Source: Tetradesmus obliquus (taxonomy: Eukaryota; Chlorophyta; Chlorophyceae; Sphaeropleales; Scenedesmaceae). From it: 64,000 nt of DNA. The DNA is taken from NCBI GenBank assembly GCA_030272155.1, contig CP126195.1, positions 3,083,001 through 3,147,000 of the forward strand, written 5' to 3'. Shown here piece after piece: positions 2,151-46,015 of this stretch. A model generated the notes under the pieces. It did no database searches and had not been told where the DNA came from. It was given only the letters and a program-made list of their open reading frames with translations. The position numbers and the translations under genes are program-made. The first letter of the stretch is position 1. Every line of letters begins with the position of its first letter.

Positions 2151-4252
2151 ACAGCAGCAGCAGCAGCAGCAGGAACAGCAGCAATTGCAGCAAGTGGTGC
2201 AGCAGCAACTTGCGCAGGGCCAGCAGCAGCAGCAGCAGCTAGCTGTGCAGCAAGCGCAGGTCCTTGCTAGCACATCACCACAGCAGCCTCCAGCCCTTAT
2301 GGGCAGCCACTTGCAGCAGCAGCAGCAGCAGCAGCAAGCCCAGGTGTGTGACAGCTTGCAGCAGCACGTCGCCAGCATGCAATCAGGGCAGCAGCAGCAG
2401 CATCTGGCACAGCAGCAGCAGCAGCAGCAGCAAGAGGTGCTGCAGCAGTGTGCAGCTGGCAATGATGCCATGCAGATGGAGCTGCCCGGTGCCACCCTGC
2501 CTGAACAGCAGCAGCAGCAGCAGCAGCAGGATGAAGGCGCAGGTGCAGGACCTGCTGCATCCACTGAACCCCTGCTTTCTGCTGCCACAGCTGAAACCGC
2601 AGATGCTGAGCTGCAAATTCACGGTGCGGATGCAGCAGCAGCAGCAGCAGCAGCAGCTAGTATGGGGAGTCTCCAGGAAGAGCAGGATGCCAGTGCATTC
2701 CTGGATGCTGCAGCTGCTGCTGCTGCACCAGCAGTTGCTGTACCCGGCAGCAGCAGCAAGGCTGGCGGCAAGCGTGGCGCAGTTAAGAAGCAGGTGGCCG
2801 GCAGCAGCAGCAGCAACGGCCCGAACGGCAAGAGTAGCTTCAGGTGTGTGATAGCATGCCGCTGCTTTACTGCATGCCAGTACGGTGATACACGCATGCA
2901 CTGTGGCAAGGTTTTACCAAGCACCTAGTAAAATGTAACAGGTGGACGTAACAGACATGCCAGATGCGCCCTGCAGCACCTATCGAGTCCAGATGCAGGC
3001 ATAACTCAGCCTCTGTCAAGACTTCGCCTTCTCATGTTTGCGTTGGAGTGTGCTGAACTGGATGTGCTGAACTGGTGTCTGTCTTTTCTTTTGCTGCAGG
3101 GGCGTCTTCTGGGACCGCAAGAACAGCCGCTGGCGCGCACAGGTGCGGCTAGAGCCACGCTGCCCAGCCTTGCACAAAGCATCTTTTTATGATGTTATAT
3201 TTATATTTTACCAGGGGGAACGAAATCTTACTGGCTAGTCACACGCTACCCCGCCTTGCACAAGCTATATGAGATCAATCGTGCGACGCTTCCATCACTT
3301 GAGCAGGAGCTGCAGTGCACACAAGGCTCCTTCTCTCTCTTGTTAGCTGCTTGATTGTCATGTGACATGTGTTACTTTGTTACTTTGTCATGTTGTTATT
3401 TCCAGGTGGGGTTCAACAACCGCAAGATCTTCATGGGCTACTACGGCTCGCCCGGTGATGCGGCGCGCGCATACGACAGGAAGGTGGTGCAGCTGCACGG
3501 CGCGCTGGGTGAGGCCGGCTGGACTGTACTTTGTGCTTGTCACACAATCTGGTTCAAAAGTAACATGATCACAATGGAAGGTGGTGCAGCTGCACGGTGC
3601 GCTGGGTGAGGCTGGTTTCAGGTTGCATGCGTTGGCTCAAGCGCTGGTTATACATTTGAGCGTGGTAAGGTATTTAGTCAGCCCGACGTGTGGGTGGCAA
3701 CGTCTGTAATCATAATACTACTGGCTCTCACTCCTCACACTCTGCCCTCATGCGTGCAGCCAAGACCAACTTCCCCCTTGAGGACTACACGGCAGACCTG
3801 CACGCCTTCAACACACAGCTGCAGCTGCAGCACACCCCGCCAGCACCGGGCCTGCTGCCAGCGCCAGCACCCCGGCCCCGCAGCTGTCGCCGCAACACAG
3901 CAGCAGCAGCAGCAGCAGCGGGGTCTGGGGCGTTTTCTACTGCTAGTGAAGGCGAGGGCGGAGAGAGTGAGGCAGCAGCAAGTGGGTGGGGTGGCAGCAG
4001 CAGCTTGGCTGGTGCTGGCGGCTGGGCGGCAGCAGCAGCAGGGTATGACCCTGCGTATGCAGCAGCAGTGGCGGCAGCAGAGCCGGCAGCAGCACCAGCA
4101 GCAGCAGGTGTGGCTGGGGGTGATGTGGACCCAGCAGCAGCCGCAGCAGCCCTGGTGCGGCAGCTGCCTCATGAAGCTGCTGCTGCTGCTGCTGCTGCTG
4201 CTGCGGTACAAGGTGGTGTAGATATACCAGCAGCTGTAGCAGCAGCTGAAGA

Positions 4253-4288
<36 letters not shown>

Positions 4289-6890: not shown

Positions 6891-7603
6891 GCAGTTTGAG
6901 CTTGGTGGGTTGTGTTGCAAAATTGTACTGCATGGGGCGTTGACAGGCACAGTTGCAGCATATGCATTGCGCGCAGTGTTGACAGTTGTGGCATGTGTGT
7001 TGTCTGCCAACTTGGCTGGTTTTTAAACTGCACTTCAGGTTGGTGGCTGTCACGGCTTTGACGGAATTTCCTGGCAGTTGTGGGTGTTTTTGTGTTGTTC
7101 ACGGCGTCCAGAGATGCTTGTGATTGCACAGCAGTCGTGTCATCCAGATCAGGCTGCCTGCAAGCTTCTGGTAAAGGCCTCATCCCTACTGCCGGTCCGT
7201 GATGGCATGTCGAGCACAGCTACAACATTTGGCATTATTGGTGTCTAAACAGGACGCTGTTGCAGCAGCTCTGGCTTCGCCGCGGCCATCCTGGTCGACT
7301 TGGATCACCCTGCCCGGGCCGGGGGCCTCGCCGGCGTGGCCAGGCTAAACCCCTTTCGCGTGCCCTTGAACTACACTGTCACGGTGCGTCTTTCTTGCAA
7401 CACATTGAGCTCAGTTTTATATTCTAAACTGCTAGCTACAGCTCAGCCCCGTGAGGCCACTGCTTGTTCCGCTCCCACCCCGCAGCAGAAGCACAGCTTA
7501 CCCTCCCTTGGACGCGCCTGCAAGACTGTGCTTCCACCAGATCAGTTAAAACTCAGCTGCATCCATCGTTTACTGCGCGTGTGTGAATCAAACTGTAGCA
7601 GAC
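6891..7603. other. Intergenic region between AP2 gene and first LRR copy
   Basis: This holds the AP2 3' flank and the upstream block of the first LRR copy. Most of it is repeated at about 13850-14560 ahead of the third LRR copy, so it belongs to a segmental duplication. No separate gene is visible. Confidence 0.6.
7190..7345 (+). repeat. Conserved block upstream of LRR copy A
   Basis: A block starting with a GATGGCATGTCGAGCA-like core and ending in a GC-rich CCCGGGCCGGGGGCCTC core precedes each of the three LRR copies (also about 10050-10208 and 14130-14305). It may be a shared promoter region or just duplicated flank. Confidence 0.6.
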
Positions 7604-9400
7604 ATGGCAGCAAGCAGCGGCAGTCCTGCAAGCGCCTGCTCACTGCTGCAAGTAGCTGAGCAGTTGTCAGAGGCTTGGTGGGAGCAAAACATGATGCCAC
7701 ACCTGCTGGAGGCCAATGCAGCTGCTAACATGGCCAGCACATGCAAGCAGCTGTGCCGCATGTGCCAACATGCTGCAACAGCGCTGCGATTGCCTGGCAC
7801 CCAGCTGCAGCGGGTGCAGGCGCACACACGCCAGCGCTTTCCATCCTGCAAGCAACTGACAGTGCAGCTGCACAGCAGGGAGCAGGCAGTGTTGGATCTG
7901 CCATTTGCTCTGGATGCGCTGGCAGGGTGAGCCGACAGAGAGCAGCAGAGGTACCACATCATGCAGCAGGCTGCTGGTGTGCCACACCTGGCGGCGCAGC
8001 ATACGCTTAACGTCGCTAGTGTGGCACCCTGACAGCAAGTGGTCCCAGCGTCACCTACATGCTGCCACAAGCCACAGCACCATGCACGCCCACGCTCCTG
8101 CCTACAGGCCTACAGGCAGGGAACCAGCCAGTTCAACACAGCAGTGCTAACATCCATGTCGCTGTGCTTGCAGGCTAACATCTCTGTCACAGCTAGTGCT
8201 GGGCATCGACGAAGCAATAGCCAGTGAGCCATATGCCATGGCAGCGACACTTGCGCCACTGCTGCTGTGGCAACGTCACCAGCAGGCAGCGCTGAAGGCA
8301 GTGCCCTGCACCCACAGCCTCACCCTCAACTTCAACTGCGGCTGGCGGGCGCACAAAGCAGCATGGCGGGTGCTTGGGCGGTTGACCCAGCTCAGCAGCC
8401 TAGCGATCCGCACACATGCAGGCGATGCGAGTTCGACAGCAGTCAAAGCGCGGCACTTGTGTGCGCTCTCGCCCCTTGGCAGCTGCCTGCAGTACCTGGA
8501 GTGCAGGATCGGCACCATCGAGGAGTCGCGGCAGCCGCAGGACTACGCCTTCCTCAGCAGCTTGACGCAGCTGACAGGTACGGGGCTGCAGGGCTGGTCA
8601 GCTGCTGCCTGCTGCTGCATGTGCAGGCCTGGCACATGTAAGGTTCCGTACATCGGCTGGCAGCTGCATTCTGCTGGGATCTTGCTTGCCAGTGCCTCAA
8701 TACAATGCCTGATGGGGATACAGCCATTTAGCGCGCACGCATTCTGCGTTTTTCCAAGGCTTGCCTTTGCTGTACGTCTAGCGTCAAGCTGCGGTCTGTT
8801 GATGTTACTTTACTGAGCAGCTGCTTAAACATGATGGTGCGCTGGTGATGCTAGGTGATGCAGCCGAGTCTGTTGTAGCAGCAGCTGCCAGCGCAGCTTG
8901 CAGGCTCTAGCCAGTCTTGGCTGCCGGTGGTGTTGAATGTTGCCCAGCTGTCGTAGCTGTAGGTGCTCAGGAGCATCAAGCATGCTTGCCGCGATGGCAG
9001 CAGTCCCCGTTCACCAAGCAACTATCACTCTGCCTGTGTGCGGACCTTGCAGGTGGCTGCCTGGACGGCGCTGCAGCAGCTGCGGGGCCTCATGCTGAGG
9101 ATTCCCACACGCAGCGCGCTGCGGCTCAGTGCATTTGATCAGCTGGGCGCCTTGCGCAGCCTCACCCAGCTGGCAATCGAGCTGCCTGGCTCTAGAGAGT
9201 TCTCCTGCAAGCAGCTGCAGCAGCTGCTGGCTAGCGTGCAGCAGGTGCGGTCTGTGCGGCTGTATGTGGATGCGGGCCGAGTGCCGGCGGCTGAGGTGGT
9301 GGTGCGGGAAGCAAGGCAGGCGAATGCAGCTGCGGGGGCTCGGGGGCCTGCTGACGTTCGGGTTGCAGATATGAATCCAGAGGTGGATTATGATGCTTGA
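7604..9400 (+). pseudogene. F-box-like/LRR paralogue A, middle exon missing
   Basis: Exons readable by comparison with copies B and C are 7604-7926, 8174-8577 and 9053-9400. Exon 1 (MAASSGS start) encodes an F-box-like stretch (HLLEANAAANMASTCKQL) ending in DALAG. Exon 2 carries leucine-rich repeats (LSQLVLG, LGRLTQLSSL, DYAFLSSLTQL). The last exon ends in the family tail (VRLYVDAGRVPAAE, VVREARQA). The roughly 225-codon LRR exon found in B and C between the last two is absent. Exon 2 ends in phase 1 and the last exon starts in phase 0, so a direct join breaks the frame. Copy A is therefore either a deletion pseudogene or a shorter protein ending soon after exon 2. The family role is not known to me; F-box/LRR proteins usually select substrates for SCF ubiquitin ligases. 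Confidence 0.6.
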
Positions 9401-10523
9401 CCGGCGCTAGGCCCTGTGCGTGCTGCTTTTGTGGCGCATGCAGCTGCTGGCAGCATCAACCAATGTGGCACCACTCGTTGTAGGAGCTGCTTGGGTGGGC
9501 TGCATGCAGCATGGGATGTGACCAGATGCTGGCATTGTTGCTTAGAGTCTGAGGCAGAGCACGTGTGTGCGATGATGCAGGGCCAGCAGCGGGCACGGAT
9601 GAGCACTGCTATTGCGGCTGACTCACTCGCTGCTGATCGCCGCTCTCCCCATGCTGTCATGAGCTGTACTGCTATCGGAGCCTGCGGTCCCGGATTGCCT
9701 TTGTTGCCCCGCTCGCGTTGCAGAAGTGTACTACATGATGTAATGTGTTGTTTACATGCATGCGCAGTGCAGCGGGGTGGTGGTGCCGCAAGAAAACATC
9801 GTTGGGATACACCCCCTGTAAATACGTGTGCCTGACCTTCAAGCTCAAGTTTTGTCGATTGCCAGGTCCTCCTAGAAAATTGCTTCGCAACTCGCACGTC
9901 GGACGGCTGTTGCAAACTGGGGTATGGCAGTTTATGAACAAGGTACAGGTGCAGGTTGACAGCCACTGTTGCGGTTGCTGCATGGCCCTGGGTCCACAAG
10001 CAGCCCGCATGCTGTTGGCTGTTGCTGGGCAGCCCTGATGCTCATACCATTGCTGTCGGTCTGTGGTGGCATGTCGAGCATAGCTGCACTTGTTGTGTAT
10101 CTGGCATCCATGTTGCCTAAGTTGGCAGCTATTGCAGCAGCCTTGCTTCTCGGCAGTCGAACTGGTAGACGTGAATAACCCTGCGCGGGCCGGGGGCCTC
10201 AACCGGCGTGTTGAACCCTTGAGTTGAACCCTGGATCTGAACCCTTAATTTAAAAACCCTTGTGTTGAACCCATTGCGTGCCTTGAACCATGCACTGTTA
10301 CAGCACTTCCTGGAAACAAAACGATTCCGTTCGCTGCTTTATTCTTAGAACGCTTGGTTGCAGGCGGGACGAGATCATCACTTGTTCGGCTACCATCCCA
10401 CAGCACAAGCGCAGCTGGCCCGCTGAAACACGCATATAAATAAACATTTCTTACAACTGAACAAACAACAGTCCAACCAGATCTCTCGGTTGCTGAGCCT
10501 GTGTGCTTCACACTGCAGCAGAC
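9401..10523. other. Spacer between LRR copies A and B
   Basis: No gene is recognised. From about 10050 it matches the upstream blocks of copies A and C. At about 10205-10275 it contains a degenerate tandem run of TTGAACCC-like units, absent from the other copies. A TATA-like element (TATAAATAAA, 10435-10444) sits about 80 bases upstream of the copy B ATG. Confidence 0.5.
10050..10208 (+). repeat. Conserved block upstream of LRR copy B
   Basis: This matches the blocks at 7190-7345 and 14130-14305: a GGCATGTCGAGCA core, then after a diverged middle a CGGGCCGGGGGCCTC core. It marks the left side of the B duplication unit. Confidence 0.55.
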
Positions 10524-11815: not shown

Positions 11816-11869
<54 letters not shown>

Positions 11870-13312: not shown

Positions 13313-13384
13313 GTGATGAAGCTTGATGCTGCCTTTTCACACACCATGATAGTGATAGGCACCATAGGACACGCGCCTGGCATT

Positions 13385-17859: not shown

Positions 17860-20800
17860 TTGACAATGTCCTTGTCTTGGCCGAATGTGCCCGCCATCCG
17901 TGGATTGCTGGCAACAAACAGCTTTCATCAAGCGAAACAGTTCCCAAACCTAAGTTTGCGCTTTAGTACATGCTTCCTGCCGGTGGGCTCGGCTGCACGT
18001 CAGCTCAACAGCAGTAGCAGCAGCAGGTGCTGCTCTCGACATGATCCATGGCATCCGGCGCTCGGTCCAGCTCTGTTTGCACGGCTCAAAGGATCTGGCT
18101 GTGTTGCTGCCTCAGCTAGCAGGAGGTGGCATGGGGACTCGCAGCACAGTAGAAGCACGCAGCAGCAACCGCCAGCAGCAGTGCCAACTGCAAGCAGCAG
18201 CACAACAGAACTCAGCGCAGGCGGTAGACCAAAGAGTGCTTGGCGTAAACTCAACCCGCTGCGTATGCTGTTTGGCTCGGCATGGCGCAAGGCTATACCG
18301 CTGTCGGTGCTGTTCTTTTCAGCCACCTTCATCTTCACTATGGTGAGCAGGCACTGTTGCAGCATCGGTTCGTGCTAGCTCTGCAGCAAGCAGTTGCAAG
18401 CTGCAGCAGGTATTGGGAGGCAAAACTCACTTGCGGCTTTGACTAGCTGTGGTCACAGTGGATGAGCAACAGCAACTGCAGCGCATGTATCCTCCTGCAA
18501 GCAGCTGCCTCTGCACACCGACAGCCTGCCAGCACCTGCCAGCAATCTCCATCTCCGACCAACAAGCCAGCAGCTGCTGCTGCCCTTGCGTTGCACTGTT
18601 TCTGCTGGCCTTGCTGAATACTCAACCTTTCAACTGTCCTTGTATGCACCTGCAGCTGCAGAGCCTGAAGGATGGCATAGTGGTGATTGAGATGGGTGCT
18701 GATGCGCTGCCCTTCCTCACCACACTGGGCACACTGCCTGCCTCACTGGCTTACTTCAACTTCTACAGGTTCACTCTGGTGAGCGGCGTGCAGCGGCCAC
18801 TGCTTGCAGGAAAGCAGCGGGCTTGCATGACAGCAGCAAACAGCGCCAGAGCACGGAGATGGAGCAAGGTGGGGTTTACCAAGCCAAGTGCTTGAGCACA
18901 AGGCAACCTGCGGCTGCTTTTGTGGATCGGCCGGCTTAAGACTTGACACTCCTGCAGCACCATGGTGATGTGGCACTGTGCCATTCACACCACAGCTGTA
19001 GGCAGCAGCAGCGGCGGGTTCAACGCTGACTCCTTGTGCGACACATGGCCTGTAACATATGGTGTTGCTGCTCGCTTGTCTTGCAGGTGCCTCACGTGCC
19101 CCCGCAGCACCTGTACTTTGCCACAGCAGCGCCCTTCCTGGCCTTCTATGCACTGTTTGCCTTCGTGCTGTACCCGCTGGCCCCAGCGCTGCACAGCTGC
19201 ACTGGCCAGTGGCTGTCATGGCTGTCTGTGCTGCCCCAGGGGCTTGCAGGACTAGTGGCAGCGCTGCAGCAGTGGCTGTTCTCGCTGTTTTATGTGGCGG
19301 GTGACCTGTGGGGGCCTGTGATGATCACGCTTGCGTTCTGGTGAGCAAGCAGCTGCTGCAACAGGCGTAGTCCACTGAACATGACTGCACAGGTGGATTT
19401 GGAATACGATGTTGACATGCAAGGCAGCCAGAAGACAGCACAACTTATTACCCACAACAGACGGCCTGCTTGCAGGAGTCGTAGGCGCCTTGGCGATGCT
19501 GCTACTACTGCTGTTGGCGTGTGAAATCTACATGTGTTCCTGCTTGCAGGACTGTTGCTGATGAGGTGTGCACCAAGGCGGAAGCCAAGGTGCTGTACCC
19601 GCAGCTGGGGCTGCTGCCCTTGATGCTGCTGTTACTGCTGTTGACTTCACAAATTCTCAATCAATGCTGCTTGCAGGACTGTTGCTGATGAGGTGTGCAC
19701 CATGGAGGAAGCCAAGGTGCTGTACCCGCAGCTAGGGCTGCTGTCTTTGATGCTGCTGTTACTGCTGTTGGCATCACTCATTGCCAACTATTGCTGCTTG
19801 CAGGACTGTTGCTGATGAGGTGTGCACCATGGAGGAGGCCAAGGTGCTGTACCCGCAGCTAGGGCTGCTGGCCAATCTGGGGCTGGTGGGCAGCGGCAAG
19901 TTCATAAAGGCGGTGCACCGCGCAGTGGGCGGCAAGCCAGGGCCAGATGGCATGGGTGTGGTGCTGCAGGTGGGGTGGGGGGGGGGGGGGGTAAAAGTTT
20001 GACCGTGCTGACCGTGAAGAGGCGGTAGTGCACAAGAGCAGCCTGCGCGGAGTACAGGGAACATGCGGTTCTCGCGCGAAAGTATGCATGTTTTCTGGCT
20101 CACTCAAGGTGTGTGGCATCGGCAGGTTGATCAAAGCAGTACACCCGAGCAGTTGGCGGCAAACCAGGGCCGGATGGCATGGACGCGGTGCTGCAGGTGA
20201 CAGAAGGTGATGGTCGACCGATTGACCAAGTTCGACCGTAGATGGCAATGGTGTGACAGAGCTGCGTGACGAAGTGCCAGACGTGCGCGTGCTTGTGCCG
20301 CATGTTTGCCCTGTGTCCTGCGCTGCAGGTGCTGGTGCTGTGCATGCTGCTGATGGCTGGAGTCATGTTTGCCTGCAAGGCGCTCATCAACAGGCGCTAC
20401 CTGAAGCCAGGTAGGCTCAGCAGCGACCACAGCAGGGACAAGCAGAACAGCAGCGCGCCGCGCACAGAGCAGCAGCAACAGCAGCAGCAGCAGCAGCCAC
20501 ATGCTGGAGAGCTAGAGGCTGCTGTGGCTGAATCCGCAGCTGCTGCTGGTGCGCAGCCGCAGCAGAAGCCAGCCCTTGCAGCAGCACCTGCTTTCATTAC
20601 GAGTGCTGGTGGCGGCATTATGCATGCACACCACAGGCACAGTAGAGCGCAGCAGCCGCGGCGGCCACCGCCGCTGCAGCCTATCAGCAGTGCCAGCAGC
20701 AGCAGGAGCTCCAGTCCAGGCAGCCTGTTGGCCAGCAACAGCAACAGCAGCAGCAGCAGCTCGCCCCGCAGCGGCAGCCCAGCAGCAGAGGCAGCAGGGT

Positions 20801-23148
20801 CTCAGCCCAAACCCAAGGGCAGTAAACCCAAGGCGTCCTGGCAGGAGGCTTGGACAGTGCTTGGCAGGAACCCTAAAGCTGCTGAGCTCACCACCTGGGT
20901 CGTAAGCTTTGGCATTGCACTGCGGCTGTTTGAGTATGCTTTCAAGGCACAGGTGGGTTCCTGCACGGCACAGCAGGCTGTGACAGGTCATACATTGCAC
21001 TGTCTGCTGCTTGGCGCTTTTTTGGTGTCAAACCCACTGGTGTCCCAATTTCCTGCAAGTTGTGTGTGTGCACTTGTTGCAGGCAACTTGAGGAGTGCTG
21101 ACAGTCACTGGGTTGGCAGGTGTCAGCTGGACAAGCCAGCACGCCAGCACGCAACAACTGCATGGGATCAGGGCTCTGTATCTGCCAGCAAGAAGGGTGT
21201 CAATGGCACTGTTTTTTGTCCGCAGCTATCATCAGCCAGACAAGCTAGCACACCAGCATGCATCAATGCAACCAGGGCTGTTGCTTACTTTTGTGCTTTT
21301 GTGGTGCATGGTCCCTGCTCACTGCTTGTGGTGCGCTGCCCTGCGGTGTGTAATGCTCTGCCTGCGGTTGCAGCTGCGGCTGGCTGCTGCCGACTCAGCG
21401 GCCTACTGCTGCGCGCTGGCAGACCTGCAGAGCGCAGTGGGCATGGGCACACTGGCCCTGATGGCAACCTCAAAGCTCATATTCAAGGTGAGTTTGAAGC
21501 TGGTGAACAGCATCTGATTGGTGGGCATGGGCGCACTGGCGCTGATGACAGCCTCAAAGCTGATATTCAAGGTGCGTTGGGGAGTGTTGCAGTCCACATG
21601 TTCTGACCGTGCTGAGGTTGGGGTGATACACTATGGACCGTGGTGTACAGCTTGCAGCAACAGCTGGTTGCTTGGTTGATGTCAAAGGCAAGCACTACAC
21701 TCGGACGTTGCTGCAACACCAGGTGCTGACTGCTTGCCGGCAGTGCCTGACAACATGCTTGTATTGTGCTGTGTGTGCGTTCACTGTGTAATGCTGTGCA
21801 GCACCTGGGATGGTCGGGAGCTGCCCTGATCAGCCCCAGCGTCATGCTGCTGCTGGGCTCCTCCTTCTTCGGCTGCTGCCTGCTGGCACAAGCAGCAGCA
21901 GCAGCAGCGCCAGCAGCAGCTGCAGCAGCTGCCGGCATTGCAGCAGGGCCCGCAGCAGCAAGCAGCAGCAGCTGGAGTGCAGCTGCACTCGCTGCGGCCG
22001 CATCTGGTGGGCAAGCTGCATCGGAGTTGCTGTCAGGCCTGGGCTTGAGTGCAGGATTTGCCACATGTGTTGCTGCTGGAGCTTGCCGCAGTAGCTTGTT
22101 CCAGCCGACTAAGGAGATGGTGTACAAAACAATGCAGCCTGCTGAGAGCAAGGCGAGCAAGGCAGTAGTAGACTTGATAGGAGGGCAGGTGGCAAAGTCG
22201 GGTGCAGGATGGCTGGTGCAGGTGCTGCTGCTGGCTGCAGGCAGTATCAATGCAGCGCTCTCAGCTATGGCGCTGCTGTTCTTTTCAGCTTGTGTTGCAT
22301 GGCTCAAGTCTACGCTGCGGCTGTCAACACAGATGCAGCAGCACGCTGATCAGCAGGCACAGGCAGACGCCGCTGCTGCCGCACAGCAGCAGCAGCAGGC
22401 AGAGGCCGAGCAGCAGCAGCAGCAAGCGGCAGCAGCAGCAGCAGGTGCTGGGCAGGCTGGTGAGCAGAGTCAGCGGCAGCTGGAGTATTGGCAGCGCAAC
22501 TGGCAGCAGCAGCGCGAGGTGCGGCGGCTGCGGCGGCAGCAGCGGCAGCGGCAGCAGCAGCTGCTGCAGTACCAGGGGTGGCGGCTGCCGCTGCCGTGTG
22601 AGCTGGCTGCTGCTGCTGCCGCTGCCTCGCGCTGGTGTGGCAGCCATCCAGCAGGGCCGGCAGCAGCAGCAGCAGCAGACAGTGATGTGAATGAGCGCAG
22701 CAGCAGCAGCAGCTACAGCAGCAGTGATGGTGGTGGCTATGCTGGCTTGAGCGGAGGCCGTACGGCGCACCCGCTCCTGCTGCAGCCCCCTATGCTGCGT
22801 GATGCGGAGTACTGGGAGAGTGTGTACCTTGCCCTTGCTGCTGATCCAGAACTGTTGGAAGCAGCAGTAATAGGCAGGCGCAGCGGGGTCATTGAGCAGC
22901 AGGAGCAGCAACAGCGGCTGCAGCAGCAGCAGCAGCTGGGGCTTCCTGTGAGCGGAGGAAGTGCAAGCAGCGGCGTGAAGCAGCAGGAGCATGACGGCAG
23001 CGCTGCAGAGCGCAAGGACTGGCAGGCAATGCAGCAGCAGCAGCAGCAGGGTGCAGAGCAGAAGGGATTGGCAGGCCATGCGCTGCCTGATATGAAGGGC
23101 ATGGCGCTTGCAAAGGAAGCTCTGCACACTACTTTTGATGTGTATTGA
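17860..23148 (+). CDS. NTT: ATP/ADP translocase of the plastid NTT (TLC) family
   Basis: Seven exons, 17860-18342, 18662-18778, 19087-19340, 19804-19969, 20329-20952, 21374-21487 and 21802-23148, give about 1034 aa. The N-terminus is Ser/Arg-rich and transit-peptide-like. Family landmarks appear in order: KAIPLSVLFF (first helix), SLKDGIVV and ADALPFLTT (matching the TKDVLVV...IPFLK region), ALFAFVLYPL, LFYVAGDLWG, ADEVCTMEEAKVLYPQLG, then after a long Gln/Ser linker (about residues 370-510) the second half with FGIALRLFEYAFK, SLFQPTKEMVY and VAKSGAGWL. These proteins exchange ATP for ADP across the plastid inner envelope. The linker and a roughly 260-residue Gln-rich C-terminal tail are larger than usual for the family. 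Three exon-edge duplications occur in its introns. The assigned start is the first ATG of exon 1; ATGs further in are possible. Confidence 0.85.
19490..19869 (+). repeat. Three-copy acceptor-side array at NTT exon 4
   Basis: A 127-base unit holds the end of intron 3 (GATGCTGCTGTTACTGCTGTTG, diverged middle, TGCTTGCAG) and the first 20 or so codons of exon 4 (TVADEVCT..EAKVLYPQLGL). Copies have acceptors before 19550, 19677 and 19804. Only the third continues into the rest of the exon. Using copy 1 leads to a stop inside copy 2. Copy 1 differs by KAEA in place of MEEA. Confidence 0.9.
20109..20196 (+). repeat. Decayed copy of the end of NTT exon 4 with its donor
   Basis: This matches 19884-19969 (GGCAAGCCAGGGCCAGATGG region and CTGCAG before GT) and extends into the intron start (GTTTGACCGT against GTTCGACCGT). 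A one-base insertion breaks the frame (CACCCGAGCAGTTGG against CACCGCGCAGTGGG). The donor GT at 20197 is retained, 227 bases beyond the true donor. Confidence 0.8.
21095..21285 (+). repeat. Imperfect tandem repeat in NTT intron 5
   Basis: CAGCTGGACAAGCCAGCACG at about 21124 recurs as CAGCCAGACAAGCTAGCACA at about 21234. Each is followed by a related CCAGCA...CAGGGCT segment. The spacing is about 110 bases and the repeat is entirely intronic. Confidence 0.55.
21435..21577 (+). repeat. Donor-side exon-edge duplication at NTT exon 6
   Basis: The final 50 or so bases of exon 6 with its donor (GTGGGCATGGGCACACTGG through ATATTCAAG|GT, donor at 21488) are copied at 21519-21574, with the second donor at 21572, 84 bases on. 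The copy has several substitutions (ACACTGGCCCTG to GCACTGGCGCTG). Confidence 0.85.
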
Positions 23149-30741: not shown

Positions 30742-30777
<36 letters not shown>

Positions 30778-33083: not shown

Positions 33084-36000
33084 GGTCTGGCGGCAGCAGC
33101 AGTGGTGGTGCAGCAGGAGGGGCTGCTGCTGGCGGCAGCTTTGCAGCGCAGGGGCGTGCGCAGCAGCACGGTGAGTGCCGTGCTGAGGCAAGAGTGCCGC
33201 AGACACGTTGGTTGTATTACATCACATGCCCTGCATGTTTGCTGCCACGCTAATTGTGGATGCTGTGCATCGGTCTTCTGGTAACTTGCTGGTAGTGTGC
33301 TGCATCCCAACATGCATGTCTATCTCTTTGTCTATCTTGACCAGAACTTAGCTGAGTCAGGCCCTTGCCTCGCCTCGGCTGGACAGTCTGCAAGCCTATC
33401 ATGCACAAGGAACAACGCCACCTGCAGGGCTGACATGCCAGCCTGCCAGCCTGCCAGCGCACTCCACCACTTCTTCGGTCATATGCACTGCTGAGCTTCT
33501 GGCTGCATTATCGTGCCTCTCTTTCTGCACTCTGTTCTTTTTTTCACCGCCTGCAGCCCTCATCTGGCCCAAGCTGCGTGCCCTGGGCCCTAGCGTTGAC
33601 CGTATGGCCGCAACTCTGCTGCCGCTCTCTCACTCTCTTTTCTCATTCTCTCGATCGATCTGCCTGCAGCCCTCACCTGGCCCAAGCTGCGCGCTTTGGG
33701 CTCTAGCGTTGACCGTATGGCCGCACCTCTGCTGCCTCCCTCTCACTCTCTTTTCTCCCTCTCTGGATCTGCTTGCAGCCCTCACCTGGCCCAAGCTGCG
33801 CGCCCTGGGCGCGGGCTTCTGGCTCACGCAGCAGTCAGCGCTGCCGTGCTGACCTAGTGCCCACCCTAACATGCTCTTCCTGCCCTTCGTCCTCCTTTTT
33901 TCACCGCCTGCAGCGCTGACCTGGCCCAAGCTACACGCCCTGCCAAACTGTGTAGCGATGTGCTGTGCTGACTCATTATGCTCATCTTCCCCTTTCTTGT
34001 GTGTCTGCCTGCAGCCCTCACCTGGCCCAAGCTGCGCGCCCTGGGCGCGGGCTTCTGGCTCACGCAGCAGTCAGCGCTGCGAGCCACAGCTGATGCGCTG
34101 GCAACAGCACAGTTCGCAGCAACAAAGGACGCGCACGAGCCTGCGCTGCTGTATGCGGCGCTAGGGAAGAAGGCGGTGCTGCAGGGGCTGTTCAGGAGCA
34201 GCGGCAACAAGAAGGTGCGGCACTGCTGCTGCTGTTGCCGCTGCTGCTGCTGCTGGTAGAGATGGTGGTCTGGTGGTCCGTTTCAACAGAAGCGGTGTTG
34301 CTGATGTCAGATTCTGCTGAACCGATGGCGCCACAGGCGCCACCTGCTGCTCGCTCCCCGCGCTGCCCCACATATCAGCCTGCTGTGCCGTGCTGTTGTG
34401 AACTGCGCCGTGCTGCACTGTTGTGAACTGCGCCGTGCTGCACTATGCTCTGCTGGCTTGTACCCTGCTTTGCACCATCAAAGCTTCCAACACCAGTGAG
34501 CCTCTGCCATCCTTCAACGGCGTCTCTCTTGCTGTGCTGGCATGTGCCGTGATGTGATGTGCGGGCCTGTGCTGTGCTGGCCTGGCCCCTGCTGTGCTAC
34601 GCCGCATTTGGCAGACTTCCCGGTGAGCCTGTTTACACCAAGCCTGCTATGCTGTGCTGTGCTGTGCCGTGCTGTGCTGTGGCGCAGGTGGCGGACTTTT
34701 TGGCGCGTGACTTCAGCAGTGCTGAGGGCAGGGCGGCCGCCAGCAAAAACGCCTTCCACCTGCTGGGGCAGCACCGCTACAGCCTGGCGGCAGGTGCGCG
34801 CGCTGGCTGGTTTGTATTACCACGACTGCAGTGTGGCTGTGGTGTGATTCGTGCGTCTTGTACCTGCTGCTTCAGCACCGATACAGCCTGGTCGCATGTG
34901 TGCTAGCTGCGTGTGCTGCACGGCTGTGGTGTGGCTGTGGTGTGCTGTGCTGTGCTGCAGTGCGCGCCTTGCACCTGCTGGGCCAGCACCGCTACAGCCT
35001 GGCCGCAGGTGCGCTGAGGGCCTCGGAAATGATGTGCGGTGCGGCTGTGGTGTGGCTGTGCTGTGGTGTGCTGTGCTGCAGTGTGCGTCTTCTGCCTGCT
35101 GGGGCAGCGCCGTTACAGCCTGGCCGCAGGTGGGGTGGGGTGGAGGGGGTTGATGTGCTGCTGGTCGAGTGTGGTTGTGGTGTGGTGTGCTGTGCTGTGG
35201 CGTGTGATGCGTCACTGGTGCAGCACCGCTACAGAGAGAGGCCGGTTACAGGGGTGGGCAAGCCATCACCCTACCGCTACAGCCTGGCCGCAGGCACAGT
35301 TGTGCTGTGTGTCTGTTCGATCCCCAGTCGCAGATGCAGAACATCTGCAGCAGCAGCAGCAGCACCAGCACTCATGGTGTAGTTGGTCATCACATCTGTC
35401 CAACACACGGAAGGCCGTCAGTTCGAACCTGGCTGGGTGCAGATTGGAGTTGGCTCTATAGTGTAGTGGTGATCACACTGGACTCTGAATCCAGTAGCCC
35501 CAGTTCGAGCCTGGGTAGGGCCTGCTAGGACAGGGCACCTGCTCTCCTGTTGTGTGAATGCTGGTCTAGTTGTGCCAGCAACTGCACCTCTGCACATGTA
35601 GGCATACTGGAGTAATTCTGCCTGTTTTTTGTACTTGCATAGCTGACCTGTTTCCACTGCGCCCGTCACTGCTGCTGCTGCTGCTGCAGCCTTCTTCGTG
35701 CTTGCCGGCAGCGGCTGGGATGCTGTGTCAGTGCTGGCAAGGGAAGCAGCAGACCCCCAGCTGGCCCTTCTAGTGGCTCGCCTGCTGGACTCAGCAGCAG
35801 CAGCAGCAGCCACACCGGCAGCAGCAGCAGCGAGTGCTACTGGTGGTGTGCTGCAGCGGCGGCTAGTCGATGAGGAGTTGCTGCTGCTGGCAGAGGCAGA
35901 TGCAGACCCTGCTGCTGCTGCGCTGTGTGCGTGGGTGCGCGGCCGCGACGGCGGCGGTGCAGTGAGCGTGCTGCTGTCAAGATTGACAGCGGGAGCAGCA

Positions 36001-36197: not shown

Positions 36198-39100
36198 CCA
36201 TTCGCGGCCAGCGCACCACCAGCAGAGTCCTGCAGTGCTCGGGCAGCTGCCTCTGGCCCTGCACTGGGTCCTCACATGCGGCCTCACTCAAATTGAGGGC
36301 CGCGCTGTCACTGGGAGCCTTATCACAGCCCTCAGCAAGCTCTCACTGCATGTTGCGCGCTGCGCTGAGGTGGCAGGGCTGCCTTGGGCCGCTGCAGAGG
36401 CCTTATCTGTTGCAGATGTGCTGGGTGATCCCTGCGGGGCAGGGCCTGGGGTTTTAGGTGTACTGCTGGGGCTGATGTGGCATGCCAGGCTGGCGGCGGC
36501 GGTACTGGCACTACAACTGGCACCAGGCAGTACAACTACTACCCCTCCTCAGGCAGTACAACAGCAGCAGCAGCAGCAGGTGCTAGACGCACAGGATCCA
36601 GGGGGTGTTGGCAGCTGGAGAGGCGGTAGTTTAGTGAGGGCGATGGATGTGGCGTACTGGCAGGCAGCAGTAGCAGAGCACCTGCCGCTGCTGCAGCGGC
36701 TGGGCCTGCAAGTGGAGCCTGCAGCAGCAGCGGTAGCGCTGGCGCGACATGCTGCAGCGCAGCGGCCGCTGCTGTCACTACCAGCTGCCCCTCCTGGTGC
36801 AAGCTGGTGCTGCTTCCCAGATCAGGGTCAGCAGCACAGCAGTAGCAGCAGCAGCAGCAATAGGCCAGCTGGGGTCACTGTGGCAAGTGACGCAGCAGCA
36901 GCAGCAGCAGCAGGGCCGGATGCTGTACTTGCGATCTGTCTGTCGCGCACCAACAGCATCCGCAGCGGTGCGCTCAGCCCCAGCGAAGCAAGGAGCAGCA
37001 GCAGCAGCAGAGCAGCAAGCTTAGCACAAGCTCCGGCCCCTGCCAGCAAGCCGCAGCCTACAGCGGCAGCTGCTGCAGGGGTAGGAGCGTCAGCAGCAGC
37101 ACCACACGCAGTGGCACCAGGCAGCACACAGCACGCCAAACAGCCAGCAACAGCCAGCACTGCCGGCAGCAGCAAGCAACAGCAGCAGCAGCAGCACTGT
37201 GTGCTGGGTCTGTCTTGGGAGCTGGCCAGGCTAGAAGGAGATAAGCTGCGGGCAGTAGCACCCTGTGTGGGGACACAGTACTCCTGCATGGTGCTACATA
37301 CACACAAGGCGGCTGCTGCTGCTGCTACCAGCCCACGCCAGCAGCAGCAGCAGCAGCACCAGCCAGGAATGCACCAGCCTGGCAGCGCAGCAGCTGCCGG
37401 GCGGCCTCGCCCGCTAGTCTTCGCCTCCAAGCAGGCAGGCATCTTACCTGGGGAGTTGTGTGCGCCCGCAAACTTACTCAGCCACTTGAACGCCACCATC
37501 AGCTTATCCCCTCAGCGCCGGCGGCAGCAGCAGCAGGCGCCGCTGCCAGCTCAAACCAGCTCAAGCTCGCCAACAGGTCTGCAAGGCGCTGCAGCCGCAA
37601 ACCCTCTCGCCGCTGCATCTGGTGCTGCTGGGTCTTCGAGCCTCTCAGGTTTCATGTCTCAGATGCTTGAGCAGCTGCGATGGCCACAGGACCCGTGGGT
37701 AGTGGGGGAGTTCCCAAACCGACGCAGCCACAGCTTTGGCAGCGCAGGCATGGCTCATGTGCAGGCAGCAGCGCTGGCAGCGCACCCGACGCGGCCGCTG
37801 TATGCCAGCGGCAGCAGCACGGGGCGCATTTACCTGTGGCAGTTTGGCGAGGCGGTGTGCAAGGCGGCTTACGTGCCCAGCACAGCTACACAGGTGCGGC
37901 TGATGGCTGTGCAGCAGCAGCATGTTTGCGTGTGTGTATGTGCGTGGTGTGCAGGGCGGCCTATGTGCCCAGGTGTGCGGCTGCTGGGGCGCTGGGGCAG
38001 ACTGTGCGCGTGCATGGAACTATTGGGGGCGCAGTTTGTGTGTTTGCGTTCTGAGTATGATTGCACACATGGGGTTTGTGTAAGGCTACCAGACACGCTG
38101 AAATGTGCTGCTGTCTCTGTGCATGCAGCTGCAGGCCGCCCCGAAGCGCCTGGCCCTGCACGAAGCCGTGGCCACGCCCCACTGGGGCAGCCCCTCTCAG
38201 CTGCTCACCACCCAACCCTGTGCACTGCGCTGCTCCTTCAATGCATGTCATGTGTGCAGCTGCAGGCGGCCCCGAAGCACCTGGCATCACATGAAGCCAT
38301 GGCCACTGGGGCAGCCCCAATCATCCTCCCTCTACTGACCTCTGTGCACTGCATTGTTTCTGCATCCGCTTCCATGCATGCAGCTGCAGGTGGCCCCGAA
38401 GCGCCTTGCGTTACATGAAGCCGTGGCCACGCCGCACTGGGGCAGAGCCTCTCACCTTGCGTTATCACTAAACACCTGTCTGCAATGCACTGTTGTTTCC
38501 GCTTTTGCAGCTGCAGGCTGCCCCGAAGCGCCTGGCCCTGCACGAAGCCGTGGCCACGCCCCACTGGGGCAGCCCCTCTCACCATGGCGATACGACTAAA
38601 CACCTGTCTGCAACCGCTTTCATGCATGCAGCTGCAGGCGGCCCCAAAGCGCCTGGCCCTGCATGAGGCCGTGGCCACGCCGCACTGGGGCAGCTCCAAT
38701 CATCCCCCCCCCCCCCCCTGCTGACCTCTGTGCACTGCATTGTTTTTGCAACCGCTTCCACGCATGCAGCTGCAGGCCGCCCCCAAGCGCCTGGCGTTAC
38801 ACGAAGCCGTGGCCACGCCCCACTGGGGCAGCTCCTCTCACATTCTACTTACCTCTGCTGTTTCTGCAACCGCTTTCATGCATGCAGCTGCAGGCCGCCC
38901 CCAAGCGCCTGGCGTTATATGAAGCCGTGGCCACTGTGCATTGGATCAGCTTTTCGCATCCTTCCAACTTACCTCTGTGCTCTGTGCTGTCTCTGCATCC
39001 GCTTCCACGCATGCAGCTGCAGGCCGCCCCGAAGCGCCTGGCCCTGCACGAAGCCGTTGCCACACCCCACTGGGGCAGCCCCTCTCACCTTGGCGAAACG

Positions 39101-40549
39101 ACTCAACACCTGTCTGCAATGCACTGTTGTTTTCGTTTTTGCAGCTGCAGGCGGCCCCGAAGCGCCTGGCGTTACACGAAGCTGTAGCCACGCCGCACTG
39201 GGGCAGCCCGGCTGCGCTGCGCTTCAGCCGCAGCGGCGGCCGCTTTGGGGCGGTGGGCTGCGGCGGGCTGGTGGGCCTGTGGCGGCAAGATTTTATTAGT
39301 GCCGTGGACGGCCTGGGGCATGCTGAGTGGCTGGGGCACTGCCTGAGCAAGGCCGGCACTGCGCTGACGTTCCTGGGGGACACCGGCAGCCAGGTGGGTG
39401 GCTGTCTGGTGTGGATGCTGGTGGATGACGATGTGCCTTGAGAGAGTCGGGGTGGGGCGGGGTCCGCTGATTAAATGGCTGAAGTCGTTGGCATGGTGTG
39501 CCATGGCAGGCTTTCCTCAACTTGATCTGCTGTATATGAGATTTGCGCTGAATGTTCCTGGGTGGTGAGCGTTAGTTGAGCATGCGCTGTACCTGGCCTG
39601 AGGCAGCCTGCGTGCACCCATGCCCCTGCTCTCTGCTCATTGTTTGCACACAACCTTCCTACTGTGCATCACTTCTGGATCCTACTACTTACTGTCTTGC
39701 GCACAGCCCATTTCAATTGAAGGTGCTCAGGATGCTTACATGCTTACATGCCACATGCAAACTCTCTGTCTGCAGGTCATTGTCGGCGGCGTGAATGACA
39801 AGGGTGGCGCAGTGGTGCTCGTCGACACGCTCGCGCCCCCTTCTTCCGCCTGCGCCGCCATGCTGCTCAGCGCGCGCGGCGCCACGCCCGCCGCCCTCAC
39901 CCTGGTACCTGGCGCAGCTGGTGCCTCTGGGGCCGGCCCTGGTGCTGTGCTTGTGGTGGGAGATGATTTGGGGGAGCTAAGGGGCTTTGATGTGAGGCTG
40001 CTGTCTGATGCTCGGCCGCTGTGGTCAGTGAAGCCGCATACAGGATCTGGAGGTGGAACTAGTGGATCTAGTGCTGCTGGAGGTGTCACTTGTGTGACGT
40101 GCTGGGATCCAGGGATGGTGGGCAGCAGCAGCGGCATGTCGGCGAGTAATGGCGGCAGTGAGTGCGGCAGTAGTGTGAGTAGTGCATTCCGGCCGCCGAG
40201 CTGGCTGGGTGATTGTGTGGTGAGTGGTAGTAAAGATGGAAGTATTGCAGTGGTGAATGCGCACACAGGCAGTACGCTGCAGCTGCTGCAGCTGGCGCAT
40301 TACACGGAGCGGCGGGGGCTGCTGGAGCGGGTGGTGGGCTCTGGTGCCAGCAGGGCGGGCGGTGGTGGGCTGGGTGGCGAGGATGGTGGGCCGCTGCTGC
40401 GGGTGCGGCCGGCGGCTGCTGTTGCTGCTGCTGTTGCTGACGTGGCAGCGGTTGGTGAGGGCCTTGTGTCAGTTGGTGCTGATGGCGTGGCGCGGTTCCA
40501 ACCGCTTGCTGCGCTGCTGAATCATTGGGCTGGCGATGATTACTACTAG
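24061..40549 (+). CDS. DMXL: Rav1/DMXL (rabconnectin-3 alpha) V-ATPase assembly factor
   Basis: Eleven exons: 24061-24228, 24566-25270, 25492-27129, 27330-28694, 28997-29262, 29578-33170, 34015-34214, 34688-34793, 35690-37893, 39145-39393 and 39776-40549. All phases agree and give about 3755 aa; animal DMXL proteins have about 3000. N-terminal WD-type segments start with VFCAYAVDGGTIVV and ESHWDEPIRQLVWGG. The Rav1 core follows: LTWPKLRALGAGFWL, LLYAALGKKAVLQGLFR, KNAFHLLGQHRYSLAAAFFVLAGS, LALLVARLLDS. C-terminal WD repeats include LYASGSSTGRIYLWQF, GRFGAVGCGGLVGLW, VVSGSKDGSIAVV and LVSVGADGVARF. Rav1/DMXL in the RAVE complex reassembles V1 with Vo of the vacuolar/endosomal proton pump. Intron 1 has a GC donor (CAACAG|GCAAGT). 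Three introns carry exon-edge arrays, and intron 8 carries two tRNA genes. The start ATG is a best guess; exons upstream cannot be excluded. Confidence 0.88.
30640..31380 (+). repeat. Four tandem acidic FGGF protein repeats in DMXL exon 6
   Basis: Four repeats read (M/L)-D/E-TGMLDM-(A/S)AFG..F, then GFG.GA and DDDxDWD, separated by polyQ and VTAAEPTSTAA spacers. Repeats 2 and 3 are about 230 bases apart and nearly identical, including QQTEPQQ. The reading frame is kept throughout. The repeats look like recent in-frame duplications of an acidic aromatic motif. Confidence 0.85.
33557..34080 (+). repeat. Five-copy acceptor-side array at DMXL exon 7
   Basis: The 3' splice site and first codons of exon 7 (TGCAG|CCCTCACCTGGCCCAAG) occur five times, with acceptors before 33557, 33670, 33779, 33914 and 34015. 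Copies 1 and 2 also share an AGCGTTGACCGTATGGCCGC tail. Copy 3 extends through WLTQQSAL before diverging to a stop. Copy 4 is the most decayed. Only copy 5 continues into the full exon. Confidence 0.92.
34755..35293 (+). repeat. Five-copy donor-side array at DMXL exon 8
   Basis: The end of exon 8 (CACCTGCTGGGGCAGCACCG, CTACAGCCTGGCGGCAG) with its donor recurs four times in intron 8. Exon-like ends lie at 34793 (true), 34897, 35008, 35129 and 35293. The first four keep GT; the fifth reads GC. Copies are joined by a TGTGGCTGTGGTGTG-rich spacer. Confidence 0.92.
35368..35441 (+). tRNA. tRNA-Val (AAC)
   Basis: The acceptor stem GCACTCA/TGGGTGC pairs fully (one G-U), followed by discriminator A. 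The D arm GTGTAGTTGGTCATCAC is of the eukaryotic tRNA-Val type. The anticodon stem is TCTGT/ACGGA with loop CCAACAC, anticodon AAC. The T stem is GTCAG/CTGGC with loop TTCGAAC. There is no intron. It lies inside DMXL intron 8 on the same strand, directly after the donor-side array. Confidence 0.88.
35452..35523 (+). tRNA. tRNA-Gln (CUG)
   Basis: The acceptor stem is GGCTCTA/TAGGGCC (one G-U). The D arm is GTGTAGTGGTGATCAC, the anticodon stem CTGGA/TCCAG with loop CTCTGAA, anticodon CUG, and the T stem CCCAG/CTGGG with loop TTCGAGC. It starts about 10 bases after the tRNA-Val gene, in the same intron and strand. It reads CAG, the codon that dominates the polyQ tracts of this region. Confidence 0.92.
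38129..39210 (+). repeat. Nine-copy acceptor-side array at DMXL exon 10
   Basis: Nine units of 118-138 bases each contain a pyrimidine-rich stretch, CATGCAG or TTTGCAG, and the start of exon 10 (CTGCAGGCSGCCCCSAAGCG, then LALHEAVATPHWG). Acceptor-adjacent bases are 38129, 38260, 38384, 38511, 38632, 38770, 38888, 39017 and 39145. Only the ninth runs on into SPAALRFSRSGG and a donor. Copies 1-8 fade into CTCTCACC and spacer. Entry at copy 1 reaches a stop at about 38336. The array fills most of a 1251-base intron. Confidence 0.95.
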
Positions 40550-42728: not shown

Positions 42729-43646
42729 TGGCGTTGTTGCATGGTTTCCTTGGCAAGGTCCGACCTTGAGTCATGACAAGTTCTGAGGCGTTGCGAGCAG
42801 GAGCGGCCAATGTGATGTCACTAGAACCACCAAAGGTGAACTGAGCTGCCTGCCTCAACAACAAAGGATGGTGTGCTGGGTATTTCAAAAATGCTCTTAT
42901 GGGTTAGCCCGTCGGCCCACCTTGGCGGACACCTCATTCACACCTCATTTGTGTGTGAGCGGTTTGTCCTTTGGTGGTGTTTCGCAGATAGATGGGCACA
43001 GATGCTGCCTGCCATCCAGCGAATGAAAGCACATGAACAGCTAACAATCAGCTTGCATTGTTAGTTGCCTGTGCGTTGCTGGTTCCTGCTGCAGTGCCAC
43101 CAAACAACTGCTCAGCAGCAAGTCCCACGTGGTCCTCACTGCTACCAACCGGGCGATCGACAGTGTCAAAAGACAGAACTGAGCGACATTTGAGCTAGAT
43201 ATGCACGGTTCACTGGCGACGACGAGGCTCCCCTTCACCCTTTGAGCCCTTCCTGGCCCCTTTTGGCGTTCCCACCTCTGGCTGGCTGAAACGTGCATAG
43301 TATAGTACGGAATCTATATTTGGTGAAGTTCTGATGGTTGCGTCCACTTTCACCATCGTGGGGAGAAGCTCAAGGGCAGCTTCACAGCAGCAGCGCGCAC
43401 GCCGCTAGCAGGCAGCCGAAGGTCATCCCAACTCAACCCTACATCAGCATGCTACTGGTATAGATAGCCCACTCCACAGTCGCTAGTCATCAGTGTTCAA
43501 TCAATCAGCTGCACCGTGCCCACAGTGCTTTTTGCCTGCATGCACAGTGGTTTGATTTGATCGCATCCTCGGTTGTGCCTGCTACGAGTGCACGCTTGCT
43601 TCAGAGATCAGCTCGTACACTTCAAGCCAGAGACTTCGAAGCTAAT
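42729..43646. other. Intergenic region before the Cys-rich gene
   Basis: No coding feature is supported. The first 30 or so bases after the stop (GATGGCGTTGTTGCATG) are shared with the 3' flank of the 48252 copy, so the duplication includes the 3' UTR. Confidence 0.5.
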
Positions 43647-46015
43647 ATGAAATCTAAATTGTTTATCGCCCTTGTGGCACTGCTGGCAGTGTTGGCATCG
43701 CCCGCTGCTGCCTCCACCGGTACCCGGGTGAGTGCTTTGTGGCTGTTTACAGCTACCAGGATGCGAGGTCGGCTTTGTGGGCAAGGCCTCATACCATCTA
43801 GCAGCCTAGGCTGTGCACGCTTCCTGCTGTATTGGTGTCACAGCCCTGCTTCGTGTCCATGGTTGTTCATTCATGGGGAGCCTGCAGCTGCAGCAATGAA
43901 GTAGTGCCATGACACTGCTTTTTGCTTTCCGCAACTCACCAGCACTGTTCTGCTGCCACTACAGGCAATGAGCCTGCAACGCCGGTCCCTTTTGCAAGAT
44001 GCCACTGCCAAGGCTCAAGATGCGGGTGCACCTGTCCCTGCAGGGGCAGCTGTAGCAGACACTCCTGCTGCTGCTGCTGCTGCAGCGTCTGCAGCATCGG
44101 CCGTAGCTACAGCTGCTGCTTCCTCCACTGCAACCCAGGCGCCTGGTGCCCCAGGAACGCCCTCTGCAGAGGCCGTTCTGCCTGTCACTGCCAGTGCTGC
44201 AGACCTGGAAAACGCCACAGCGCTCGCTCAGAGTGCTGCGGTGCTGCCCCAGGCTAGCGTGCCTGCAACTGCAGCTGGCGTGAATGTCAGCCGCAGGGCC
44301 AGACGCAGGGCTCGTGCACCAGCTCACAACACTACTGTTGGTTCCAACGCTGGGCCAGAAGGTAAGCACTGATTGTTGTATGCATGCCAGCAACAAGACT
44401 CGGGACAGATGGCAACCATGCAGACAGGCTCCACACAACCGACTAGAGTCTAGGCCATGCAAGCAGAGGATGTGTTGACAGCTGAATACGTGCCATGCAT
44501 ATGCTTGCTACGCTGTGGAAGCAGTTTGAACCTTTCAGCAGTCGATGCCCATTCAAGATGATCATTAGCCCTTGCCCAAGCACGCCACCAGCACCGCCCT
44601 GCCTTGCCACAGACACCAATCTTCCCTGTTTTGCTGGTGTGTTCTGTGCAGTTCAAGTGGCGCAAAGTGCATGCAACAAGTGCAACATTCCAATCGCCAA
44701 TGGTGGCTGCAAGTGTGACAGCAACTGCAACTGTCTTCCAGGTAAGCTTGCGGTTGCACCTTCGGGGCTGCTGCCTGGGACCAGTAAGGCACCGCAACTG
44801 GCGCAACACTGCGACTGACTCGATAAAAAGGGAGGGGCTGCTTAACATGTTACCTGTCTCCTACATATTCCATCTGCCATCTTCATGTGTGCGGCAGCAT
44901 AAACAGCAGATGGGGATGTCCCAACAGATGTGACGTTGTGACAAAAACGGACTGTGTATGTTGTTGTACGCTATGCAGGAGGAGGAAACGTGTGTGACAA
45001 GTGCAACCGCCCAGAGGCCAGTGGAGGTTGCAAATGTGATGCAAACTGCAACTGCCTGGGTGGCGGTGGCGGTGGTGGCGGTGGCGGCGGCGGTGAGTTT
45101 CCAACTTGGATGAAAGCCAGCAACTGCTCTCAGCATGTGCACACCGCGCGCTTGCATGCATGCTGGCATCACTCGCAGAGGGTAGTGGAGGTTGCAAGTG
45201 CGATGGAAACTGCAACTGCATGATGGTGATCTTCCTACTGCACTAAACAAAGACATGATGCAAGCCTACAATCCTGCATACTTGCTCATGAATGTCCAAA
45301 GAAGCCGTGTTACTGTGAAACGGTTGCCAAACCCAACCATGGTGAACCTTGCGCTGCCTCTGCCTGTTGTTATGCATGCTGAACAGCTCTTACATTTACA
45401 TATACAGTTGCCCCACATGAAACATGTTTAGTCCTTGGCTTGAGGCTGCTCTAAAATCACCATGTCATCCGCTGACAGCCGACTCACATCGTCTGCGCTC
45501 GCCGCTGTCCCCCTGTGCTGCGCTAGGTGCCAATCCTTGTGACAAGTGCAATGCACCCCTATCACAGGGTGGATGCAAGTGTGACAGCAACTGCAGGTGT
45601 TTGGCAGGTGAGTTGCTGTCTCCAGTGCCCTATTGGCCAGAGGTTCCATATCATCCATGTTGACCTGCTTGCATTTTTGAACGGCTTGGGGCTCAGCTGA
45701 CACTTGTTTGTATAATAACATTTCTAGACATCCGCCAAAGTCCTCACCTGCCTGTGTTCATCGTGCAGGCCCCACCAATGGTGTTGCCAGAGCAAACGGA
45801 CCATTGACGACGTCTAAGTGCGTCAAGTGCAGCCTCCCAGCTGCAGCTGGCGGCTGTGGTTGCAACCTCAACTGTGACTGCGTTGCAGCTGCACCACAAC
45901 GCCCCAGCGCGGCTGCTGTTGAGCAGACACGAGCGCCAGGTAAGGTCACTGGAGTGCACCGATGCATGTCCGCGTGTTTGATGCCTAAATTGGCCCATAG
46001 CAACGCAGCCAAACC

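Follow-up and report, generated by a model that had tools for sequence, protein, structure and literature searches.

Several described systems come close to the repeats reported here for the green alga Tetradesmus obliquus, in a stretch of 64,000 nucleotides (contig CP126195.1, positions 3,083,001 to 3,147,000; hereafter the window) where a segment crossing an exon/intron boundary is found again, once or several times, inside the adjoining intron. As in minisatellites, the units run head to tail, measure from tens to about 100 bp and form multi-copy arrays; unlike them, most of the arrays detected (44 of 55) straddle an exon edge, and coding sequence forms part of the unit. Introner elements are a route by which intron content changes at scale, and in this respect the arrays are alike; however, when 77 spacers were searched against the 304 kb of DNA studied, no family shared between arrays was seen (of the 75 spacers with any hit, 16 match elsewhere in these 304 kb, over short stretches only). 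Tandem (mutually exclusive) exon duplication likewise places exon sequence in tandem within an intron; it differs in that most copies here have one splice site and a partial exon, and overall we do not find both splice sites in each copy, two copies at DMXL exon 8 being possible exceptions. In the potato RdRp case (PMC4974935; review PMC3443670) an intron-exon structure lying upstream was duplicated together with its branch site, tract and 3' splice site. That case and the present one share a duplication that is direct, local and inclusive of splice motifs, whereas the copies here are spare edges within an intron, with no new intron or exon seen, and occur at about 9% of edges. No published description of exon-edge arrays was found among the matches listed, which cover titles and the beginnings of abstracts and leave subscription journals mostly outside.

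Our reading, for and against which the balance seems to us about even, is that duplications crossing an exon edge lengthen introns, and that their copies stay exon-like through exchange with the exon or through periods as the working edge. It is drawn from the window and 12 blocks (20 kb each) from five contigs, 304 kb in all or about 0.3% of the genome (104.66 Mb, 17 contigs); the blocks were built from 20 fixed-step 10-kb stretches (two of them all N) and six added stretches. Exon edges were taken from our own two-strand gene finder, trained on this DNA (donor CAG/GTGAG, acceptor TGCAG/G, the slash being the junction; median intron 271.5 and exon 141 nt), and repeats were confirmed by self-comparison, Tandem Repeats Finder (TRF) and reading of the sequence. 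The edge set comprises 653 predicted edges of exons of at least 60 nt; a local copy touching the junction (E < 1e-8) is present at 57 of them (about 9%), with 116 copies. For unit measurement 44 edges with 79 copies were kept, and 43 edges with 77 copies form the curated set for the later counts (divergence, splice sites, flanks). Curation removed predicted decoy exons, complex or coding repeats, low-complexity or distant matches, and copies with less than 15 nt of exon match.

Chance is insufficient to produce these copies, as the original prediction held: at a local score of at least 38, a match lies in the own intron at 71 of 653 edges, compared with 5 inverted matches in the own intron, 2 in an unrelated intron and 17 of 635 on the far side of the exon. 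With a score of at least 36 the rates in the window (18/131) and in the sample (54/522) are alike (p = 0.28), all 7 inverted matches fall in the window, and control segments give 14/285 inside exons and 35/650 inside introns, the latter with array copies included. Crossing arrays are present in the window and in 9 of the 12 sampled blocks. An assembly artefact appears unlikely, as exon-side divergence of the copies is about 9% and that of the flanks greater. The unit measures 116 nt (standard deviation, sd, 19), with an exon part of 42 (sd 15) and a remainder of 74 (sd 23), for 39 nearest copies within 200 nt. Acceptor and donor versions both occur, as had been stated (27 and 30 of the 57 edges). 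A single copy is found at 24 of the curated edges and two to eight copies at 19, one P450 gene having curated arrays at six edges; intron phases at the arrays (21, 9 and 13 for phases 0, 1 and 2) are like those of all introns (197, 96, 113).

Edge crossing exceeds expectation, again in agreement with the original prediction. Of 55 arrays, 44 are crossing, 6 exonic, 3 intronic and 2 intergenic; the 44 include complex arrays and at least 3 that run into the end of a predicted gene instead of a splice edge. The expectation comes from a neutral simulation in which 2,600 duplications, their unit lengths taken from the data, were placed at random; of these, 1,875 (intronic, one-edge-crossing and intergenic) were evolved and passed through the same detection, giving 146:132:80 crossing, intron-only and intergenic. 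The observed 44:3 crossing to intron-only differs from 146:132 with p = 1.3e-8, the sample without the window (37:3) with p = 5e-7, and a conservative count (30:3) with p = 1e-5. One rival proposal is that splice junctions are hotspots of tandem duplication (through R-loops, pausing or nucleosome edges); this excess and the tight unit size of 116 +/- 19 speak for such targeted birth, as does the set taken at 80% identity (12:2:1 crossing, intron-only and intergenic versus simulated 102:99:50, p = 0.005). However, the youngest whole-unit duplications (at least 85% identity over 80 nt), at 6:2:1, fit random placement (simulated 74:56:38, p = 0.30), in a test that rests on nine arrays and is weak; young and older arrays compare as 6:3 and 38:2 (p = 0.04). 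Since the youngest fit random placement and the 80% set shows an excess, the excess grows with age. CAG/CTG triplets at unit joints (13/77, versus 6 in exon-part controls and 24 in spacer controls) are not significantly enriched, and the proposed slippage or R-loop causes are without direct support. The claim of targeted mutation at boundaries is thus not borne out; we consider targeted birth unlikely, and the crossing excess looks like persistence, targeted birth not being shown. Repeat coverage peaks at +10 in the exon (60/633) and is 54/633 at the edge and 25/573 at -60.

Two very young intron-only arrays, L023 735-1221 (124-bp unit, about 99%) and L021 168-373 (51-bp unit, 100%), indicate that purely intronic duplications do arise. 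A further array, in L009 and L010 joined (14297-14822; 110 bp, 4.8 copies), overlaps a predicted gene end and not a splice edge.

The introns concerned are long. At 42 curated array edges, two introns being counted from both sides, the median is 466 nt versus 269 (341 without repeats; p = 3e-10); once the array span is subtracted it becomes 255, with p = 0.66 against repeat-free introns. A tandem-duplication route of intron growth, one of the causes originally suggested, fits these data, as array-edge introns are longer by about the array span. Tandem arrays of all kinds make up 11,068 of 141,751 predicted intron bases (7.8%).

In the window, boundary repeats had been pointed out at eight places in four unrelated genes. 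Seven places are indeed exon-edge copies in the adjoining intron; the place in the Cys-rich gene is not. The features, all on the forward strand, are as follows.

3406..3508, forward strand: AP2 exon, donor GT at 3509 taken as spliced; the domain continues over the splice 3508/3760
3576..3615, forward strand: copy of the AP2 exon tail (30 nt) and donor, junction 3606; 95% to 3479-3518
19495..19870, forward strand: NTT exon 4 acceptor array, copy junctions 19550 and 19677, spliced 19804, unit 127 (self-comparison, gene models)
20115..20199, forward strand: copy of the NTT exon 4 tail and donor, junction 20197, spliced donor 19970; 82% to 19889-19972
21521..21578, forward strand: copy of the NTT exon 6 tail and donor, junction 21572, spliced donor 21488; 90% to 21437-21494
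33519..34080, forward strand: DMXL exon 7 acceptor array, copy junctions 33557, 33670, 33779 and 33914, taken as spliced 34015
34750..35296, forward strand: DMXL exon 8 donor array, spliced donor 34794, copy junctions 34898, 35009, 35130 and 35294
38098..39220, forward strand: DMXL exon 10 acceptor array, eight copies with junctions 38129, 38260, 38384, 38511, 38632, 38770, 38888 and 39017, taken as spliced 39145
45012..45222, forward strand: Cys-rich coding repeat pair 45012-45058/45176-45222, a real repeat, edge crossing not shown

The extra copies are one at the AP2 donor (+97; its intron-side similarity ends after 10 nt), two at the start of NTT exon 4 (-127, -254), one each at the ends of NTT exon 4 (+227) and exon 6 (+84), and, in DMXL, four at the start of exon 7, four at the end of exon 8 (the outermost with only 21 nt of exon match) and eight at the start of exon 10. 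In the Cys-rich gene the repeat pair matches -81..-35 of the predicted exon and leaves the edge untouched; a match crossing the donor edge at 44742 does occur 866 nt further downstream, but it is another Cys-rich exon-like stretch with its own donor (about 45542-45607). We therefore read this gene as one of coding repeats, and the genes affected are three (AP2, NTT and DMXL), not four.

Splicing probably joins the outermost copy and leaves the others out of the protein, a view supported where homologues or Pfam domains span the edge. AP2-like, TLC and Rav1p_C domains continue across the joined exons (the Pfam AP2 match covers residues 41-82 with 28.7 bits, under the cut-off of 33.3). Three public gene models, P0003 and the pair P0001 and P0002 (which we take to come from two strains), use the outermost edges of NTT exon 4, passing 19804 without added residues and leaving at 19970; at the end of exon 6, P0001 and P0002 join at 21488, and P0003 exits at the same edge with a different continuation. 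Where they align, two Tetradesmus obliquus proteins are 99-100% identical to the NTT protein. For DMXL, eight homologues were aligned from 28 found, and none of these eight repeats the exon 7 or the exon 8 edge. At exon 8 the join (34793/35690) lies inside a conserved stretch in 8/8 homologues, with the Rav1p_C match running across it, and algal homologues support it; the exon 7 edge stands at the start of the conserved Rav1p_C stretch, one of the eight homologues aligning only further in; exon 10 starts in a poorly conserved stretch, where the homologue alignment does not decide the spliced edge. In the sample, a Pfam domain runs across the array junction in 9 of 10 fragments and the tenth (an FDF match) stops short; the ten were picked as recognisable from 42 joined peptides, three were assembled by hand, and the kinase match is under the Pfam cut-off.

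Readings in which a copy serves as an exon of its own were also tried. The mini-exon (cassette) reading was rejected because partner splice sites are not in excess overall: donors (score at least 4) after acceptor copies stand at 0.05 versus a background of 0.13 (n = 42), and acceptors (score at least 5) before donor copies at 0.35 versus 0.24 (n = 34; distributions p = 0.17). Some donor copies have a good acceptor-like site upstream, e.g. at DMXL exon 8 (34961-35008 and 35082-35129, 48 nt each). An in-frame stop precedes the true junction in 26 of 42 acceptor copies, at a median of 22 nt past the match end versus 34 in the other frames; the poison-exon reading was set aside, and such stops were not treated as evidence.

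At the 43 edges the nearest copies differ from the exon by 5.5% at first and second codon positions and by 16.3% at third positions, and the alignments of the flanks are best described by 0.16-0.20 changes per site and lineage. The anomaly is that the exon-derived part diverges about threefold less than the flank, with the reservation that similarity on the exon side was the means of finding the copies, so that divergence there comes out too low. Third positions hold 0.60 of the changes (bootstrap 0.50-0.68) versus 0.45-0.50 in neutral simulations, and N/(N+S), where N and S are nonsynonymous and synonymous, is 0.45 (bootstrap 0.36-0.55) versus 0.57-0.61 for neutral copies, a modest synonymous bias. 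Synonymous to nonsynonymous codons number 156 to 123 in the larger set and 100 to 49 in the initial 29 edges; the DMXL exon 10 copies have 45 and 9 in total. Of 13 nearest pairs whose exon sides differ by no more than 5%, 5 have flanks that resemble each other no better than unrelated flanks do, and simulation at T = 0.055 yields essentially no such pairs. Anchored intron-side similarity extends at most 13 nt in 45 of 77 copies (4.6 expected), and exon-side divergence is equal in copies with and without it. With more sensitive searching, 36 of 42 acceptor copies and 28 of 35 donor copies have a flank that shows some similarity to one unit or another, which tempers the impression that many copies have unrelated flanks; in 21 of 43 cases flank similarity lies above the 95th percentile for unrelated flanks. 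In 7 of 19 multi-copy arrays the second-nearest copy is closer to the exon than the nearest, and some spacers resemble a non-neighbouring unit; this mosaic structure suggests exchange between units.

Three other explanations have to be weighed against these data. The copies could be selected decoys, kept as spare splice sites that tune splicing or expression. That most copies keep AG or GT had been noted and is correct (AG 41/42, GT 30/35 in the 77 curated copies); against an exon-side dinucleotide baseline of 368/462 = 0.80, AG retention is higher (p = 8e-4) and GT retention is not (p = 0.26; joint p = 0.002). The exon part is also better kept than the flank, and in copies with little anchored flank similarity the pyrimidine fraction (0.65; true introns 0.62, background TGCAG 0.50) and the donor +3..+6 score (1.61; true 1.62, background -1.35) are splice-like, whereas in the same copies the -20..-6 tract scores 0.23, less than in true introns (1.45, p = 0.004). 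Their full acceptor score of 5.65 is likewise under the true 7.09 and does not differ from background (5.01, p = 0.11), the stricter no-similarity set comes down to 6 acceptor copies (0.58 versus 0.50, p = 0.04), and 17 of the 77 copies contain indels. AG retention is in line with the originally suggested selection for competing splice sites and GT retention is not; such selection is possible but not demonstrated, and we regard selected decoys as decidedly improbable. Exon-restricted conversion, in which spliced mRNA or cDNA repeatedly overwrites the exon-derived part and only the spacers diverge, would explain the close pairs with unrelated-like flanks, nearly absent under simple duplication, and the short anchored similarity at equal exon-side divergence; however, it predicts no synonymous bias, contrary to the third-position share of 0.60, and some flank similarity survives in most acceptor and donor copies, so that we hold it very unlikely. 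End-joining templated insertions are known to come in both orientations. Pieces of exon edges copied in this way into nearby intron breaks would agree with the sharp ends and little flank similarity of some copies, but inverted copies are few (5 versus 71) and nearly half of the flanks (21/43) exceed the unrelated level; this explanation we find hardly credible.

We return to the reading that edge-crossing duplications lengthen introns and stay exon-like. Short tandem duplications (mostly about 85-160 bp) would arise genome-wide without a shown preference for edges, to judge by the nine youngest. One that crosses a single splice junction would be tolerated, since the exon body keeps its link to the outermost junction and splicing takes place there, the other copy being left as a spare intronic edge. 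Each such duplication adds one unit to the intron, as the intron lengths show. Purely intronic duplicates would decay and vanish from view; edge copies would persist because the exon-derived part stays near the working exon while the spacer diverges, for which the basis is statistical. Through repeated unequal exchange within and between alleles, the copied edge may sometimes have been the working edge and been purified by selection; direct gene conversion or residual function of the copy are alternatives for this last step.

Several points weigh against this account. Exchange should first homogenise the spacers too, which it seemingly has not. The young arrays are only nine, which leaves room for a moderate targeting of births, and the edge excess is already significant at 80% identity. 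Coverage 200 nt into long introns (11/108) is as high as at the edge (54/633), since the copies themselves lie there. Over all copies without DMXL exon 10, N/(N+S) is 0.51, i.e., the bias is partly that of one array; the 17 of 77 copies with indels mean that copies are not strictly kept; and the finding of copies by similarity favours low exon-side divergence. Finally, the edges were predicted from DNA sequence by a home-made gene finder.

Some other features of the window may be mentioned. In NTT, exon 5 (20329-20952) has a long Gln/Ser-rich stretch in P0001 and in the window, not in P0002, perhaps an alternative gene model. In a DMXL intron, tRNA-Val(aac) and tRNA-Gln(ctg) lie at 35368-35523, just downstream of the exon 8 array, and 30621-31525 is a coding repeat (TRF unit 228) of AMDTGMLDMSAFGGFGFGAG-like units inside one predicted exon. 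A run of Cys-rich repeat exons (GGCKCDxNC-like) at 44652-45607 is a coding repeat separate from the edge arrays; another coding repeat (50366-50985, TRF unit 228) is entirely within a predicted exon. A 24-bp array of 4.2 copies with 100% matches is at 60605-60704, and 7179-17166 contains tandemly duplicated multi-kb stretches (10490-12617 versus 14529-16553 at 69%), apparently repeated related genes.

To our knowledge, routes of intron lengthening that do not involve transposons are little documented. The arrays point to such a route, other than by transposon insertion, in that array-edge introns exceed others by about one array span. If RNA and strain data uphold it, the slower divergence of the exon part in non-spliced copies would give direct access to local exchange or to a hidden role of the spare splice sites. 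One may go further and propose that edges are self-renewing seeds of intron growth through an exon-restricted process (allelic recycling or RNA/cDNA-templated conversion), a proposal we find possible though doubtful; if it is true, introns would grow by whole units and serve as a reservoir of ready-made alternative edges.

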